This document shows, in pieces, positions 717-63,387 of a stretch of DNA of 64,000 bases (positions within the stretch are counted from its first letter, which is position 1; every line of letters begins with the position of its first letter). A program made the translations under genes and the position numbers. This DNA comes from a virus: positions 1 to 64,000 of IMG/VR virus record IMGVR_UViG_3300025410_000672; one strand, given 5' to 3'. The notes beneath the pieces are model-generated. The model made no database searches and was not told the DNA's origin. It saw nothing but the letters and a program-made list of their open reading frames with translations.

Positions 717-733
717 CTACAGGAGACAGACAG

Positions 734-1174
734 ATGACTAAGGTAATTGTGTTCGATATTGACGGAACATTAGCCGATATGGAACACCGTAGACAATGGT
801 TTGACGGTGGAAAAAAGAACTGGAATGCGTTCTTTGCTGCTCAGCATTTGGATCCAACACACGAAGATATTGTTTGGATGCTGAATCAGTTTCACCAGAG
901 TGGTAATACAATTCTTATCTGTACTGGACGTAACGAAGGACACAGAGAAATATCTGAAGAGTGGTTAACAAAGAACAACATCGAGTACGATAAGATGTAT
1001 ATGCGTCCACTTAACGATTTCCGTCAAGATGGCGTTGTTAAAGTTGATCTGTTAGCAAAAATCCGAGAAGAATACGGTGAACCTTGGTTGTGGATTGATG
1101 ATCGCAAACAGGTTGTGGATGCTATTCGTGCTGAAGGAGTTCGTGTTCTTCAAGTTTGTGAGGGCGATTATTAA
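734..1174 (+). CDS. HAD-type polynucleotide 3'-phosphatase domain protein
   Basis: The N-terminus has the HAD nucleophile motif DIDGTLA (D8, D10) followed by HRR. CTGR comes mid-protein, then YMR..ND.R.D..VK and a C-terminal WIDDR, in the order seen in the phosphatase half of T4 polynucleotide kinase/phosphatase. At about 146 aa it lacks the P-loop kinase half. The family removes 3'-phosphates from nucleic acid ends, in T4 during tRNA repair, but the substrate here is inferred. The start at 734 follows AGGAGA; an upstream in-frame TTG at 686 lies inside the promoter and was rejected. Confidence 0.75.
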   Translation: MTKVIVFDIDGTLADMEHRRQWFDGGKKNWNAFFAAQHLDPTHEDIVWMLNQFHQSGNTILICTGRNEGHREISEEWLTKNNIEYDKMYMRPLNDFRQDGVVKVDLLAKIREEYGEPWLWIDDRKQVVDAIRAEGVRVLQVCEGDY

Positions 1175-5665: not shown

Positions 5666-6376
5666 ATGCCTACAATGCGAATCATAATACCTGCAAGAAT
5701 GAAAAGTATAAGACTTCCTAATAAACCTCTAGCAATGATTGGAGATATAACACTTATCGAAAGAGTTCATCAAAAGGCTTGTGCTACAGATTATCTTGTT
5801 ACTGTTTTAACCGATAGTCAAGAACTTAAAGATCAATTTCCTAATTGGGACATAAGATTAACACCAGAAGACTGTGCTACAGGAACAGACAGAATTGCTA
5901 GTGTTGCAGATCAATTTCAAGAAGATATTCTTGTAAACTGTCAAGGTGATTTGCCATTTATTGATTCTTATCAAATTGTAGATACTGCTATAACTTTGGA
6001 AAGAACTAAAGCAGATGTTGCTACATTAGTTCATGATATGGATCTTAATAAATTAGAAGATCCTAATACTGTAAAGGCAATATGCTGTCAAGTTGCTCCA
6101 GACTTAGATCCAAAAATTATGAGAGCACATTGGTTCCTCAGAAGTTCTCTAAAATATGGATATCAACATGTTGGTGTGTATGCTTATCGTCGAGAATTCT
6201 TACAAGTACTTTCTTCTGAAAGAACTCCGCATGAAGTAGCAGAAAATCTTGAACAGTTGAGATTCTTAGAACTTGGATATAAAATTGCTGCTCTACATAC
6301 CGATCCGGTGCCGTTAGAGGTTAATACTCCAGAAGATCTCGAAGCAGCAAATAAATATTTGTATGAGATTTTATGA
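5666..6376 (+). CDS. kdsB: KdsB-like CMP-Kdo cytidylyltransferase
   Basis: The 236-aa protein carries the KdsB order: IIPARMKSIRLPNKPL (nucleotide-binding loop), TDSQEL, ATGTDRIA, VNCQGDLPFI, then HVGVYAYRREFL and LEQLRFLE. The enzyme activates Kdo (3-deoxy-manno-octulosonate) with CTP for lipopolysaccharide or capsule synthesis. Residues YAST in the usual loop are MKSI here, so a related keto-sugar acid cannot be excluded. A matching Kdo-8-phosphate phosphatase (kdsC) lies at 62020, about 56 kb away. Confidence 0.85.
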   Translation: MPTMRIIIPARMKSIRLPNKPLAMIGDITLIERVHQKACATDYLVTVLTDSQELKDQFPNWDIRLTPEDCATGTDRIASVADQFQEDILVNCQGDLPFIDSYQIVDTAITLERTKADVATLVHDMDLNKLEDPNTVKAICCQVAPDLDPKIMRAHWFLRSSLKYGYQHVGVYAYRREFLQVLSSERTPHEVAENLEQLRFLELGYKIAALHTDPVPLEVNTPEDLEAANKYLYEIL

Positions 6377-23749: not shown

Positions 23750-25297
23750 ATGACAGGACTGGTAGGTATAAGAGCAGCATCAAGTTCAGCAGGACCCGGA
23801 GATGCTTTTTCAGGATCTCCTATTCTTTCTGGATCATCTTTTGCTTCTGGATCGTCGTTACCACCTACAAGTGATTCATTTTCTTCTATAGGTGGATTAG
23901 GAAACTATTCAACAGCAAATGTTAGTCCTTCTCAATATCAAGGAGGTTTTGGTTCAAGCGGACAAAATGCAGGTCAGGCAGCAGCAGATTCAACTGCTAG
24001 TCAATCAAGTTCTAGTAGCAGTAGTGACAATACTGGAAAAAATCCTCAAAGAGGTTCTAGTACTAGAAAAAGAATGAGACGTGTTGATAATAAAGATTCT
24101 AGTTTAAGAGAACCACAACCAGCAGATGATAGAGTTAAATCTGCAACTAGTGATGATGCTGATATGTTCTTGGGTTTAAAAAGTTTAACACAAGAAGGAA
24201 GTAGTGGAAATAATGATGGTAGTTCTTTTTTAATTGATAGTATTCCTCCTAACTTAAACGGTGTAATACAAAGTTTTGTTCCTCAAGTAGCAGGAATGCA
24301 ATCATTATTAGGACAAATACCTAGTGCATCTTTAGGACAATTTTTAAATAATATACCATCAAGTTTACAAAGTTTATTACCAGCAGGAATGTTACCGGGA
24401 GTAACAAGCGGTTCTAATGTAAATTTAAGTACTATACAAAATTTAGCAAGCCAAGCAGGATTATCACAAAGTGCATTGTCAGGGTTATTAGGATCTAATG
24501 TAGGTAGTTCTGGAGGCAGTGGGTCTTTGCCAAGTCTTGCAAATGGTTTACAAAGTTCAGCGATATCGGGACTTTCACAAGCAATTCCTTCCAATATTGC
24601 TCAATCATTGTTCAATCCTAGTCAATTAACCAGTATGCTTCCTGCTAATTTACAAAACTTAATTCCTCAAGTTCCTCCAATATTCTCAGAAGGTGCAGAA
24701 AATCTTACATCAGCAGTAGCAAATGCTGCTCCTCAGATGGCTCCAAATAGCGACCAACCTAGTGGTGGTCAGGGAAGTAATGGATGTAACCATGTTGATC
24801 CTTCCAACGATGGAAAAAATAATACTAATACTCGTTATATTGATTATACACAAATGTTGTCACAAAATTTCTCCCTAGGTCAATTAACACTCTTGTCTGG
24901 TGTTGCTCCTGGTAGATTCCCACTAAGCGGAAAAGATTTAGATAAAGTTACTAAAAGTCTTTCTGGCGTTGCAGAAAATGTTTTAGAACCTTTAAAAACT
25001 GCTTATGGAGCATTTACTATTGTAGGTGGACTAAGAGATGATGGCGAACATAAGGATGGAAAATGTATAGATCTTTCATGGGCATGTAGTCAAACCAAAT
25101 TAATGGAAATTGCTCAATATGTACAAAACAGTCTTCCTGTATCCGAAGTTCAAATGCATCAAGGAAAAGGAAATGTAGGTTGGTTGCATATTAAATACGA
25201 CAATGGATCTTGTGGTGCTAGTGCCCAAACAAATAGTCCAGCAGGTGGACAAACTTCTGGATTAGTTGATTGGTCAACAATTCCATATACATTTTGA
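23750..25297 (+). CDS. Large Ser/Gly-rich tail protein with C-terminal M15-like domain
   Basis: The first 370 residues are low-complexity Ser/Gly/Gln/Leu-rich. The last 140 contain GGLRDDGEHKDGKCIDLSW and GWLHIKYD, the His..Asp..His zinc pattern of M15-type peptidases, and resemble the modules in the preceding gene. Probably a baseplate or tail-spike component that meets peptidoglycan. The TGA stop is part of the TTGACA box of the tmRNA promoter. Confidence 0.6.
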   Translation: MTGLVGIRAASSSAGPGDAFSGSPILSGSSFASGSSLPPTSDSFSSIGGLGNYSTANVSPSQYQGGFGSSGQNAGQAAADSTASQSSSSSSSDNTGKNPQRGSSTRKRMRRVDNKDSSLREPQPADDRVKSATSDDADMFLGLKSLTQEGSSGNNDGSSFLIDSIPPNLNGVIQSFVPQVAGMQSLLGQIPSASLGQFLNNIPSSLQSLLPAGMLPGVTSGSNVNLSTIQNLASQAGLSQSALSGLLGSNVGSSGGSGSLPSLANGLQSSAISGLSQAIPSNIAQSLFNPSQLTSMLPANLQNLIPQVPPIFSEGAENLTSAVANAAPQMAPNSDQPSGGQGSNGCNHVDPSNDGKNNTNTRYIDYTQMLSQNFSLGQLTLLSGVAPGRFPLSGKDLDKVTKSLSGVAENVLEPLKTAYGAFTIVGGLRDDGEHKDGKCIDLSWACSQTKLMEIAQYVQNSLPVSEVQMHQGKGNVGWLHIKYDNGSCGASAQTNSPAGGQTSGLVDWSTIPYTF

Positions 25298-25322
25298 CAC
25301 AATCTAAATCCTATGCTATAAA
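25294..25322 (+). promoter_or_regulatory. Sigma70-type promoter for tmRNA
   Basis: TTGACA (25294-25299), a 17-base spacer and TATAAA (25317-25322). The -10 continues as TATAAATA, which also matches a T4 late box. The -35 includes the stop codon of the upstream gene. Confidence 0.75.
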
Positions 25323-25328
25323 TAGTTC

Positions 25329-25640
25329 ATCATTGTTGATATCAATGTAATAAAACGAACTGGACGCCGGGGCGGTACCGGCCGCCTCCACCATAGTAGC
25401 ATTGTTTCCTAGGCCTGGCCCATGAAATCGCCCTTTGCGGTTGACAGTGCTACTTTGATGGGGGCGACAAAGGATTGACAGGCGAATAAAGATTGAAGTA
25501 GATGGTCCGGCGAAAGCTCGGTTAACGCAATAAAACTAATAAATGCAGCAAACGATAACTTTGCTCCATCTAAGGTTTCTGCTCTAGTAGCTTGACCTTA
25601 ATGAGCCCGCCGGAGCTCGGAAACAGAATCCGGCACTTAA
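25329..25640 (+). ncRNA. ssrA: Circularly permuted (two-piece) tmRNA
   Basis: The acceptor piece comes first: T-arm stem GCCGG/CCGGC (25366-25382), CGCCTCC, discriminator A and CCA ending at 25393. The coding piece begins GGGGGCG (25460), which pairs with CGCCTCC, and continues with the tmRNA signature GGATTGACAGG. Between them, AGTAGCATTGT and ACAGTGCTACT pair, as expected of a loop removed during processing. The tag frame (25545-25595) reads AANDNFAPSKVSALVA then TGA, close to alphaproteobacterial ANDN-type tags. tmRNA rescues stalled ribosomes and tags products for Clp/FtsH proteolysis. The outer ends are approximate. Confidence 0.9.
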
Positions 25641-45410: not shown

Positions 45411-46178
45411 ATGGCAATATTAACTAAGACTGCCGCAGTTTCAGACACAGACGCACAAGTAGTCGATTTACGTGGTATGTGGATCGGACTAGTAACACTC
45501 AATGTTTTTTACCTAATTGTACGTATATATGAACAAATCTTTGGCTGGAGAGCTGGCCTTGATTCGTTCGCTCCAGAGTTCCAGACATATTGGATGTCAA
45601 TCCTATGGACTGAAATTCCTCTAGAACTAGTTTCGGGTTTAGGCCTCGCAGGTTATCTTTGGAAGACTCGCGATCGTAACCTTGCAGCAGTTTCTCCACG
45701 TGAGGAAATGCGCAGACTAGTTGTTCTTGTACAGTGGCTCGTAGTTTACGGCATTGCCATTTATTGGGGTGCTTCGTTCTTTACAGAGCAGGACGGTACT
45801 TGGCACATGACAGTTATTCGTGATACAGACTTTACTCCAAGTCACATCATTGAGTTCTATATGTCATATCCAATCTACAGCGTTATTGCTGTTGGTGCTT
45901 TCTTCTATGCAAGAACACGTATTCCATACTTCGCTCAAGGCTATTCATTAGCATTCTTGATCGTTGCTATTGGACCATTTATGATTATTCCAAACGTTGG
46001 TCTCAACGAGTGGGGTCATACTTTCTGGTTCATGGAAGAACTCTTTGTAGCACCGCTACATTGGGGCTTTGTGTTCTTTGGTTGGATGGCACTAGGCGTA
46101 TTTGGTGTTGTTCTACAGATTCTAGGTCGTGTTCACGCTCTAGTTGGCAAAGAAGGTGTTGCTCTACTAACAGAGTAA
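45411..46178 (+). CDS. pmoC: Particulate methane monooxygenase subunit C
   Basis: A complete 255-aa PmoC: VDLRGMWIGLV, GWRAGLDSFAPEFQTYWMS, WTEIPLELVSGLGLAGYLWK, then multiple membrane helices to the KEGVALLTE end. Copper ligands fit Asp128, His132 and His145 (DGTWH and PSH), equal to Asp156/His160/His173 of Methylococcus. The sequence reads like Methylocystis PmoC; only the first 20 residues look strongly different. PmoC is a membrane subunit of the enzyme that oxidises methane to methanol. pmoA and pmoB are absent. Codons are AT-shifted but the gene looks richer in GC than its neighbours. Confidence 0.97.
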   Translation: MAILTKTAAVSDTDAQVVDLRGMWIGLVTLNVFYLIVRIYEQIFGWRAGLDSFAPEFQTYWMSILWTEIPLELVSGLGLAGYLWKTRDRNLAAVSPREEMRRLVVLVQWLVVYGIAIYWGASFFTEQDGTWHMTVIRDTDFTPSHIIEFYMSYPIYSVIAVGAFFYARTRIPYFAQGYSLAFLIVAIGPFMIIPNVGLNEWGHTFWFMEELFVAPLHWGFVFFGWMALGVFGVVLQILGRVHALVGKEGVALLTE

Positions 46179-56092: not shown

Positions 56093-57907
56093 ATGAAAAA
56101 ATGGAAAAGATATATACCATGGATTACTTTTGCTGTAGTTGCAGGTTTACTATTTGCAATGTGGCAAAACCAAGAAAAACACCCAGATATTAGAGAAATT
56201 AATTTTAGTGATTTCTTAGTTCAAATCGATGAAGGGCGTGTACACGATGTCACAATTGAAGGAAATGAAGTTACAGGTCATTTTACTGACAATCGTACAT
56301 TTGAAACATATCTACCAAGCGGACACACAATTATACCTAAACTAGAAGCAAAGAAAGTTCAAATTACAGCAAAACCTATAGGTGGAGAAAGTATATGGAC
56401 TACTCTAGCATCTAACATTTTACCTTTAATTATTTTTATGTTTGTTTGGTTCTGGCTAGCAAGATCAATGACTGGTCGAGGAGGCGGCGGCGCTATGGGA
56501 TTTGGAAAATCTAAAGCGAAATTACTCGAAACACAAGGAACAGTTAAATTTGACGATGTTGCTGGTGTTGATGAAGCAAAAGAAGATTTACAAGAAGTTG
56601 TTGAATTTCTTCGTGAACCTAATAAATTCCAATTAGTTGGTGGAAAAATACCGAGAGGCGTTCTGCTAGTCGGACCACCTGGTACAGGTAAAACATTACT
56701 TGCTAGAGCAGTAGCAGGTGAAGCAGGTGTACCATTCTTTAGTATTTCTGGTTCAGACTTTGTAGAAATGTTTGTTGGTGTTGGTGCTAGTCGTGTTCGT
56801 GACATGTTTGAACAAGCAAAGAAAAATGCTCCATGCATTATCTTTGTTGACGAAGTTGATGCTGTTGGTAGACATCGCGGCGCGGGATTAGGCGGAGGAA
56901 ACGACGAACGTGAACAAACACTTAATCAATTACTTGTTGAGATGGATGGCTTTAATGAAAATGAAGGAATTATTATTATTGCAGCAACAAACAGAGTTGA
57001 CGTATTAGATCCTGCCCTACTTCGTCCAGGTCGCTTTGATCGTCAAATTACTGTTCCTAATCCAGACTTTATCGGACGTGAAAAGATCTTAAAGGTTCAT
57101 ACACGTAAAGTTCCTTTGTCTCCAGATGTTGATCTTAAAGTTGTAGCAAGAGGAACACCTGGATTTAGTGGTGCTGACTTAATGAATCTTGTTAATGAGG
57201 CTGCATTACTTGCTGCTCGTCGTGGTAAAAGAATTGTTATGAAGAAAGAGTTTGAAGATGCTCGAGATAAGATTCTTATGGGAGCAGAACGTCGTACACT
57301 ATTAATGACTGAAGAAGAAAAGAAAATGACTGCTTATCACGAAGGTGGACATGCTCTTGTTAGTCTTAACATGCCAGGTTCTACGCCAATTCATAAAGCA
57401 ACGATCATTCCACGTGGTCGTGCTTTAGGTATGGTCCAGTCATTACCTGAACGTGATGAGATTAGTCAAACATATGAACAATTTATTGCTATGTTAGCAA
57501 TGGCAATGGGAGGGCGTGTTGCTGAAGAATTAATTTTTGGACACGATAAGGTAAGTTCAGGTGCTGCTGGTGATATCCAACAAGCAACCAAGATTGCTCG
57601 TGCTATGGTTACACAACTTGGATTTAGTGACAAACTTGGAACAGTTGCTTATAGTGAACCACAACACGAACAGTTCCTTGGATACTCAATGGGTCGTGAA
57701 CAATCTGTATCACAAGAAACCCAAAAGACTATCGATCATGAAGTTCGTCGCTTTATTCAAGAAGGATATGAAACAGCAAAGAAGATCTTAACTGAGAAGA
57801 GAGATCAACTTGACAAACTTGCAGAAGCTCTTATAATGTATGAGACACTAAGCGGTCAAGAGATAATCGATCTTTTGGACGGTAAGGAACCAGTCAGGGA
57901 GTCTTAA
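56093..57907 (+). CDS. ftsH: Membrane AAA+ metalloprotease FtsH
   Basis: Complete 604-aa FtsH: two N-terminal membrane helices (about 8-24 and 103-120), [17 protein letters not shown] (Walker A), [16 protein letters not shown] (Walker B), the SRH region [14 protein letters not shown] and the zinc site HEGGH, then a helical C-terminus. It extracts and degrades membrane proteins and tmRNA-tagged proteins. AAGGAAC precedes the ATG. It is one of the few phage ftsH genes I know of, and it sits 10 kb from pmoC. Confidence 0.97.
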
Positions 57908-58401
57908 TGACTATCTTTGTAATTTCGGACACACACTTTGGACATGCTAACATTCTGAAATTTACAAGACAGGATGGCAGTCCAATGCGTGTCTTTGAAT
58001 CAGTGGAGCATATGAATGAAACAATGGTTGAAAACTGGAATCGAGTTGTCACCGACAGCGATATTGTCTATCATCTTGGCGATGTTTATTTTGGGAAGGG
58101 TCACGAGATACTTGGTCGGCTAAAAGGTCGTAAGCGTCTTATCCTCGGAAATCATGATAACGGCAAGTGCCAGAATTTACACAAACATTTCCAGAAGATT
58201 ATGATGTGGAGAATGTTTCCAGAATTTAATTGTCTGCTAACTCATGTACCTGTTCATGCAAGTGTACTTTATAAGACAAAGTATAACCTACACGGACATG
58301 TACATCATAATAGTCTTCCTGAAGAAAACTACATTAATTGTTGTGTAGAACCCTTAAACTTTACTCCTACTCCTTTGGAATCTTTAATTCCAAAGGAATA
58401 A
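57907..58401 (+). CDS. Calcineurin-like metallophosphoesterase
   Basis: FVISDTHFGHANI (D-x-H), HLGDVYFG (GD), LILGNHDNGK (GNHD), LLTHVPVH and NLHGHVHH (GHxH) are all five metallophosphoesterase blocks in 164 aa. Substrate unknown; phages often carry such small phosphoesterases. It starts on the last base of the ftsH stop. Confidence 0.92.
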   Translation: MTIFVISDTHFGHANILKFTRQDGSPMRVFESVEHMNETMVENWNRVVTDSDIVYHLGDVYFGKGHEILGRLKGRKRLILGNHDNGKCQNLHKHFQKIMMWRMFPEFNCLLTHVPVHASVLYKTKYNLHGHVHHNSLPEENYINCCVEPLNFTPTPLESLIPKE

Positions 58402-62019: not shown

Positions 62020-62529
62020 ATGCCGTTCAAATCAAAATTATCTAAATGTAAATTAGTTATTACCGATGTAGATGGGGTACTTACAGATGGTAGAATCTAT
62101 TATACAGAGCATGGTGAAACAATGAAGGAGTTTCATGCTCGAGATGGTTTTGGTGTTATAATGTTACAAAAGATGGAAATTAAAACGGCAGTTATAAGTG
62201 GACTCGGTTCTGAGGCTTTACAAAAACGAGTTTCCGATTTAGGTATTGAATATAGTTTTTATCATGTAAAAGATAAATCTGCGATATGTAAAACACTTAT
62301 GGAAAATTTATCTCTTCATCCAAATGAGGTAATTTGTATTGGTGATGAAATAATAGATCTTCCAATGTTTGAAGTTTGTGGAACATCTTTTGCTGTAAAT
62401 GATGCTCCAATATACATAAAAGAAAAAGCCGAAAGAGTTCTTTTTTCGAATGGTGGAAGAGGAGCGTTTCGAGAAGTAGTAGATGAGATAGTAAAAGCAA
62501 AAGGGTTGCCTTTCGAACACTTTGTTTAA
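62020..62529 (+). CDS. kdsC: Kdo-8-phosphate phosphatase (KdsC-like HAD)
   Basis: LVITDVDGVLTDGRIYY (HAD nucleophile), FHARDGFGVIMLQK, TAVISGLGSEALQKR, HVKDKS and CIGDEIIDLPMF follow KdsC in order; 169 aa is normal. It dephosphorylates Kdo-8-P, the step before KdsB, which is also phage-encoded (5666). SG(L/R) variants exist in related sugar-acid phosphatases. Confidence 0.88.
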   Translation: MPFKSKLSKCKLVITDVDGVLTDGRIYYTEHGETMKEFHARDGFGVIMLQKMEIKTAVISGLGSEALQKRVSDLGIEYSFYHVKDKSAICKTLMENLSLHPNEVICIGDEIIDLPMFEVCGTSFAVNDAPIYIKEKAERVLFSNGGRGAFREVVDEIVKAKGLPFEHFV

Positions 62530-62616: not shown

Positions 62617-62619
62617 TTT

Positions 62620-62645
62620 TGGGGTATCGTCTAATGGTAGGACAG
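62620..62645 (+). pseudogene. Truncated tRNA (5' half, tRNA-Gln-like)
   Basis: TGGGGTATCGTCTAATGGTA continuing GGACAG is a perfect 5' acceptor strand plus D arm. It stops where the anticodon stem should start, and an HNH gene follows. The TGGGG start and D-loop resemble the intact tRNA-Gln at 63198. No matching 3' half is seen downstream. Confidence 0.7.
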
Positions 62646-62657
62646 TATAAATACTAT

Positions 62658-63197
62658 ATGTTATCCAAAAATATTGATGAAAATTTAATTAAAGAATTAT
62701 TAGATAGCGGAAAGACTAATAAAGAGATTTCTTTTATTCTAGATATTTCGGCACCAACTGTTACATATTGGAGAAAGAAACTTAAAAAAGGATTATCAAT
62801 AAAAAGATACAATTGGAAAGAAATACAAGAAGCACACAATAATGGATCTTCTTATTCAAATTTAAGAAAAGAATTTGGTGTAACTAAACGGTCAATCGAA
62901 ATGGCTAAGAAGAGGGGAGATTTTAGTACAAGAAAAATTCCTTGTATGGATCCGGAACAAGCAAAATTAAGAAAAAGAAATAGAAGAGAAGCATGGATGA
63001 GATATCATAGCCGAAAGAAATATCAGACTCCCGCCGACGAAGATATAAAAAAACTACAAGAATTTTATGCTAACTGTCCACCTGGATACGAAGTCGATCA
63101 TATTATACCAATTTCTAAGGGAGGATTACATTCAATATCTAATTTACAATATTTAACAAAATCTGAAAATCGTGCTAAAAGTAATAAAATAATTTAA
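62658..63197 (+). CDS. HNH homing-type endonuclease inserted at a tRNA
   Basis: The N-terminal region is HTH-like (NKEISFILDISAPTVTYWRKK, SYSNLRKEFGVTKRSIEMAKK); the C-terminal HNH core is YEVDHIIPISKGG and HSISNLQYLT. Start ATG 62658 follows the broken tRNA; the frame ends on the base before tRNA-Gln. The setting suggests tRNA genes are its target. Confidence 0.85.
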   Translation: MLSKNIDENLIKELLDSGKTNKEISFILDISAPTVTYWRKKLKKGLSIKRYNWKEIQEAHNNGSSYSNLRKEFGVTKRSIEMAKKRGDFSTRKIPCMDPEQAKLRKRNRREAWMRYHSRKKYQTPADEDIKKLQEFYANCPPGYEVDHIIPISKGGLHSISNLQYLTKSENRAKSNKII

Positions 63198-63272
63198 TGG
63201 GGAGTGGTGCAATGGTAGTCACGTCGGACTTTGACTCCGAAAATGATCGTTCGAGTCGATCCTCCCCAGCCA
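63198..63272 (+). tRNA. tRNA-Gln(TTG)
   Basis: Acceptor TGGGGAG/CTCCCCA, anticodon loop CTTTGAC, T loop TTCGAGT, G discriminator, encoded CCA. It abuts the HNH stop codon. Confidence 0.94.
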
Positions 63273-63288
63273 AATATAAATACCTCAT

Positions 63289-63387
63289 GCGGGTGTAACT
63301 CAGAGGTAGAGTTCTTGCTTGCCTGAAGACATTAAGGTGTCTTGAATAAGCAAGATGTCGAGGGTTCGAATCCCTTCGCCCGCTCCA
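63289..63387 (+). tRNA. tRNA-Gly(GCC) with a 24-nt insertion in the anticodon loop
   Basis: Acceptor GCGGGTG/CGCCCGC, D arm ACTC/GAGT, anticodon stem CTTGC/GCAAG, T stem GAGGG/CCCTT and CCA are all intact. The anticodon loop reads TTGCC, then 24 extra bases (63324-63347), then AA. Without them the loop is a normal TTGCCAA. The insert contains the hairpin AAGACA-TTAAGG-TGTCTT. It could be a small intron-like element, a decoy, or a broken gene. Confidence 0.85.

Follow-up and report, generated by a model that had tools for sequence, protein, structure and literature searches.

The tRNA-Gly(GCC) gene described here raises a simple question: why does a phage tRNA gene in which every arm is intact carry 24 extra bases in its anticodon loop, and do these bases leave the RNA? 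The window, that is, the whole stretch of DNA analyzed, comprises 64,000 nt of virus DNA (positions 1 to 64,000 of IMG/VR record IMGVR_UViG_3300025410_000672). The interrupted gene lies on its plus strand at 63289..63387 and measures 99 nt, or 75 nt without the insert. The 5′ tRNA part (63289..63323, plus strand) comprises the acceptor, the D arm and the 5′ half of the anticodon arm, and ends in ...TTGCC at base 36; the insert (63324..63347, plus strand; TGAAGACATTAAGGTGTCTTGAAT) is placed between bases 36 and 37; and the 3′ tRNA part (63348..63387, plus strand) contributes A37 and A38, the 3′ half of the anticodon arm, the variable loop, the T arm, the acceptor and TCCA. A first-pass annotation had reported an insert of this size at this place in a gene with intact arms, and had stated that its removal restores TTGCCAA. 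Both statements hold: the acceptor, D, anticodon and T stems are each completely paired, and excision at 36/37, the sole junction that does so throughout the family described below, yields TTGCCAA, the canonical glycine loop, in every member. Other splice junctions were rejected because they yield GAU, GAC, GGG or GCU anticodons, which misfit a glycine tRNA body.

The body of the interrupted tRNA is of alphaproteobacterial type. Against Rfam RF00005 (gathering threshold 29) the gene scores 54.9 bits, a value inside the span covered by the window's 18 ordinary tRNAs, and ARAGORN detects it only when introns are allowed. A hidden tRNA-Val proposed by ARAGORN in intron mode was rejected, since it calls for a different cut within the loop and a tRNA-Val(UAC) gene is present at another place. 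The features recognized by GlyRS, U73 and C2-G71, are both retained, with U73 as the discriminator, and CCA is encoded in the gene. The closest match to the window exons is an uninterrupted tRNA-Gly(GCC) of 75 nt on another phage contig (L003), identical at 68 of the 75 positions (91%). A tRNA-Gln(TTG) identified by ARAGORN (63198..63272, plus strand) ends 16 nt upstream, and the two genes probably share one common transcript. The codons GGU and GGC make up 57% of the glycine codons of the phage, and no second tRNA-Gly(GCC) was found in the sequenced part of its incomplete genome.

As judged by two family alignments, the 24-nt form of the insert consists of a single U, an 8-bp stem (9 bp if the basal U.A pair is counted), a YAMG loop and a tail. 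In the window, the 5′ arm of the hairpin (63324..63332, plus strand) has nine positions, with U.A at the base and A-U and U.G beside the loop; it leads into a UAAG tetraloop (63333..63336, plus strand), which is followed by the 3′ arm (63337..63345, plus strand), as delimited by the covariation counts, and by a 3′ tail of A and then Y (63346..63347, plus strand; covariation count, pair 33-59). The AU and GU that close the loop are constant, so that the hairpin tip, AU-YAMG-GU, is invariant across the family. The last tail base, Y, can pair with G34, as G.U in the window and as G-C in L006. The tRNA folds with its insert at -38.5 kcal/mol, 3.7 sd more stable than shuffled sequences. By itself, the hairpin of a single insert (7-bp stem) is unremarkable, being matched by 1167 of 20000 shuffles; because a lone hairpin is not significant, the case beyond chance is a comparative one, built on five further sequences and their covarying stems.

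To find relatives, we scanned IMG/VR for tRNA-Gly(GCC) genes with 18-48 extra bases behind TTGCC; the pattern scans prescribe some D-arm and T-arm sequence and therefore miss members with divergent arms. The scan matched L002, L006, L129, L130, L132 and the group L005/L007/L131, mostly fragments of 15-87 kb, and so answered the suggestion of the first-pass annotation that related phages be checked for the same insert. L002 carries the window insert unchanged, while those of L006 (TGAAGACATCACGGTGTCTTGAAC), L129 (TCAGGACATCAAGGTGTCTTGAAT), L130 (TAAGCATATTAAGGTATGCTTAAT) and L132 (TAAGCATATTAAGGTATGTTTAAT) differ in sequence. All five of these distinct inserts are 24 nt long, and a sixth form, found in L005, L007 and L131, has 44 nt, made up of an intact 24-nt core with 20 nt added in the loop. 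Each of the six forms occupies position 36/37 of a tRNA-Gly(GCC). When the insert-tip pattern was left open to any isotype, Gly(GCC) alone was returned. Scanned strictly for a second interrupted tRNA, the family phages gave only a tRNA-Ala in L006's phage, with an insert of 87 nt, and the searches made of isolated phage records and plasmids returned no interrupted relatives. The window insert and its kin are a small structured RNA element present in at least six phage sequences, with all tRNA bodies intact.

The family also carries the marks of selection. Both sides have changed at 4 of the 10 pairs of the insert helix; the paired share of cells is 96% for the five sequences of 24 nt and 91% when all seven are counted, and the seven hold 9 cells changed on both sides against 0-1 in slid controls. 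With a small sample of five to seven sequences, this covariation lies above nearly every shuffle. In the tRNA arms, 105 of 105 cells are paired across the family and both sides have changed at 10 of 21 pairs, which shows that selection acts on the form of the tRNA body in its interrupted state. The histories of insert and exons do not run in parallel. The window and L006 agree at 68% of exon positions and at 21 of 24 insert positions, while for L129 and L130 the figures are 96% and 16 of 24, the differences being mostly compensated. On these comparisons, inserts have probably been swapped between tRNA-Gly genes, or the stem is drifting fast under a constraint on structure alone; the conflict would suit an exchange of the insert or unequal rates better than plain descent.

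Since site and shape are kept as the letters change, the insert is probably a small intron-like element. We propose, with somewhat more confidence than doubt, that it is an intron-like phage element confined to tRNA-Gly(GCC) and removed by cut-and-ligate processing. Its structure and site can be read directly from the alignments; its removal by cutting and joining is what we infer. Decoding would require that the insert be taken out, and cleavage at two junctions followed by ligation is the simplest route. In the transcript, the anticodon arm would be lengthened by the hairpin through the pairs 32-38, 33-37 and G34-Y24, followed by a bulge of C35 and C36 and then by the 9-bp helix with its YAMG loop, such that this bulge would separate the lengthened stem from the hairpin and have a junction on either side. 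A host or phage nuclease would cut at C36|U1 and Y24|A37, the ends would be healed where needed, and a ligase would join the halves into a TTGCCAA loop, giving a tRNA expected to decode GGU and GGC. The processing enzyme could equally well be the host's or an uncharacterized phage protein.

Several phage genes bear on such a pathway. The first-pass annotation had pointed to a PNKP-type phosphatase encoded at 734, and this gene is real: a stand-alone PNKP-type 3′ phosphatase domain (HAD_PNKP) is encoded at 725..1174 on the plus strand (PF25109, E 4.7e-29). It is a possible end-healing enzyme, as predicted from its domain; in the related phage G010, a phosphatase with which it shares 52% identity is encoded beside RNA ligase 1. 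A calcineurin-like phosphoesterase (57907..58401, plus strand; PF00149) is 63% identical to a G010 relative that adjoins RNA ligase 1, by which a tie to tRNA processing is only suggested. G010, the phage of L132, encodes RNA ligase 1, an AAA_33 kinase and the PNKP phosphatase within 3 kb; its RNA-repair cassette (L190 15649-19607) consists of separate adjacent genes for the phosphoesterase, RNA ligase 1, the AAA_33 kinase and the PNKP phosphatase. Another related phage, G008, is without the cassette at the corresponding place. Of the set of ligase 1, 5′ kinase and 3′ phosphatase, the phosphatase alone was found in the window phage, whose genome is not closed, and the recommended search for ligases in its two contigs (~157 kb) returned no RtcB, PF09414 or PF09511 ligase. 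Of the earlier suggestion that the insert may need endonucleolytic removal and repair, the phosphatase is confirmed, and we infer that this route is still the likeliest. Among ~6 family lineages, most of them represented by short fragments, one has RNA ligase 1, as compared to 5 of 27 other large unselected contigs. These counts do not support an association of this ligase with the insert: it is not commoner than background, and its presence in one lineage is therefore no evidence of linkage.

We evaluated four other explanations for the insert. That it stems from an assembly or sequencing error, the former named by the first-pass annotation as a refuting outcome, has nothing beyond the strangeness of the insert in its favor and is of negligible probability, given that the overlapping contig (L002/L128) is identical and that homologous inserts are present in seven other metagenomes; the family contigs come from eight metagenome accessions, including that of L002. 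An archaeal/eukaryal-type intron cut by a bulge-helix-bulge (BHB) splicing endonuclease is also very improbable. The first-pass annotation had placed the insert closer to archaeal/eukaryal introns, and in size this is borne out, archaeal introns measuring 11-129 nt (PMC4090602), as is the location in the anticodon loop; the BHB motif and the 37/38 position are not. In a scan of 84,980 prokaryotic species genomes, which gave 39 matches for interrupted tRNA-Gly(GCC), those passing the tRNA-arm checks were all archaeal (five genes). The bacterial chromosomal candidates failed the checks and were rejected as tandem-gene or chance matches. At 37/38, four of the five archaeal genes form a central helix of 4 perfect base pairs (TTGC/GYAA), whereas the best for all phage members is 3 of 4 pairs, and no cut that leaves a 7-nt loop gives them the 4-bp helix. 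No gene for the splicing endonuclease PF01974 was matched in the incomplete records G000, G001, G002, G003 and G006, and the alphaproteobacterial type of the window tRNA body likewise argues against an archaeal-type intron.

The remaining two explanations leave the insert in place. One holds that it is never removed and that the RNA, rather than decoding, is a decoy or bait for an anticodon nuclease, GlyRS or a tRNA-binding defence protein, or else a stable regulatory RNA. The unspliced fold is very stable and buries the anticodon in an internal loop beside a strong hairpin, the invariant tip resembles a recognition site, and the ligase searches of the window phage are in line with an insert that stays. 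Ribotoxins usually attack the anticodon loop (review, PMC4090602), and changes in the anticodon loops of phage tRNAs are described as allowing escape from tRNA-cutting defences (PMC10264068). A decoy, however, would need neither the GCC anticodon nor the exact restoration of TTGCCAA that are kept in every member; it would leave phages with near-complete tRNA sets without a tRNA that reads GGY; and the 20-nt loop extension of L005 argues against strict recognition of the tip. We therefore regard the decoy as unlikely, if the most serious competitor. Still less likely is a mobile hairpin or insertion scar in tRNA genes that are inactivated, dead or dying, because the tRNA arms are intact. The conflicting phylogenies of insert and exons would suit a transferable unit, homing HNH genes are plentiful nearby, and other phage tRNAs hold unrelated anticodon-loop inserts, whole tRNAs among them. 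Against this, the decay in relatives that the first-pass annotation had considered is absent from all six diverged members, compensatory changes are found both in the tRNA arms and in the insert helix, length and position are fixed, and Gly(GCC) alone is affected.

The matches listed by a general scan for anticodon-loop inserts in phages include many false ones. Interrupted tRNAs of other kinds do occur in phage contigs. A tRNA-Gly(TCC) with CCA is nested in the anticodon loop of a tRNA-Asn (L064, 2123 onward; CTGT[...]TAA), and a tRNA-Phe in that of a tRNA-Arg(TCT) (L015, 4972 onward; CTT[...]CTAA). Unrelated inserts of 36-87 nt are present in L092 (4841; probably tRNA-Thr), L008 (probably Asn), L123 (probably Thr), L180 (5393; probably Ala) and L052. 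They lie at varying positions (34/35, 35/36 and near 37/38), and some can pair with the anticodon.

The window is part of a 77.7-kb contig that overlaps a second contig (L002/L128) over 13.7 kb at 100% identity, and the two jointly cover ~157 kb. It encodes a PmoC/AmoC protein (45411-46178; PF04896, E 5.5e-108), and the phage further has genes for FtsH, HSP70 and a T4-like structural protein, by which it resembles the pmoC-phages described from freshwater methanotrophs (PMC7674155). A permuted tmRNA of alphaproteobacterial type lies at 25290-25637 (RF01849, 112 bits; RF04321, 98.6 bits). An HNH endonuclease gene (62619-63197) is preceded by an apparent 5′ tRNA fragment (TGGGGTATCGTCTAATGGTAGGACA) and has a complete, different tRNA-Gln directly behind it, a layout suggestive of homing into a tRNA gene. 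For a ParB/HNH-like gene downstream, the relatives scan returned the same phage alone. Three genes (window 5666-6376 and 62020-62529; L127 7390-8229) resemble CMP-KDO synthetase (as judged by eye), a KdsC-like HAD phosphatase and DAHP/KDO-8-P synthase (PF00793), and perhaps form a phage-borne KDO pathway.

Small tRNA introns that are processed by proteins are not known from bacteria or their viruses. With its constant site and length and its covarying structure, the insert family is a defined substrate with clear predicted products, so that splicing of tRNAs in infected bacteria, and its enzyme, become directly testable. If the RNA is instead a decoy, it represents a new anti-defence design for phage tRNAs.

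Among known systems, a BHB tRNA intron has a 4-bp central helix and two 3-nt bulges that hold the cut sites, with 37/38 as its canonical position. The phage insert matches the archaeal introns in size range and in anticodon-loop location, but is found at 36/37, without a BHB, in a bacterial virus. Group I introns, which in bacterial tRNAs likewise reside in the anticodon loop, need a self-splicing core of at least about 200 nt; an insert of 24 nt has no such core and no Rfam intron family was matched in the window, so a group I intron was rejected, in keeping with the first-pass annotation, which had set the insert apart from the large self-splicing elements of bacteria. In the PrrC system, T4 RNA ligase 1 and Pnkp mend a nick in an uninterrupted tRNA and remove no insert. 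Repair of this type would supply the joining, and G010 clusters ligase 1, kinase and phosphatase, whereas the unclosed genome of the window phage shows the phosphatase alone. The nearest precedent is found in the Lak megaphages of Prevotella, for which introns in tRNA-Thr, tRNA-Tyr and others are described (Devoto et al. 2019, PMC6784885). As in the Gly(GCC) family, the Lak inserts are short, interrupt otherwise intact phage tRNAs and are common to related phages. The main text of that report gives no known mechanism for their removal, mentions one insert that nests a tRNA, and calls the introns an enigma (PMC6784885), and they are mentioned again in PMC8346664; phage tRNA introns were thus left as an unexplained oddity. 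That main text describes no common structure for the Lak inserts (PMC6784885), whereas the Gly(GCC) family is a single coherent and covarying 24-nt type at 36/37 in unrelated phages. Our literature searches found no paper on this family or its mechanism. While interrupted phage tRNAs are already known from Lak megaphages, the coherent Gly(GCC) insert family appears to be new, and the processing that acts on it may well be new too. Minimal 24-nt Gly(GCC) introns that are removed by neither a BHB endonuclease nor a ribozyme would amount to a third kind of tRNA splicing in infected bacteria, a proposal that we make tentatively.
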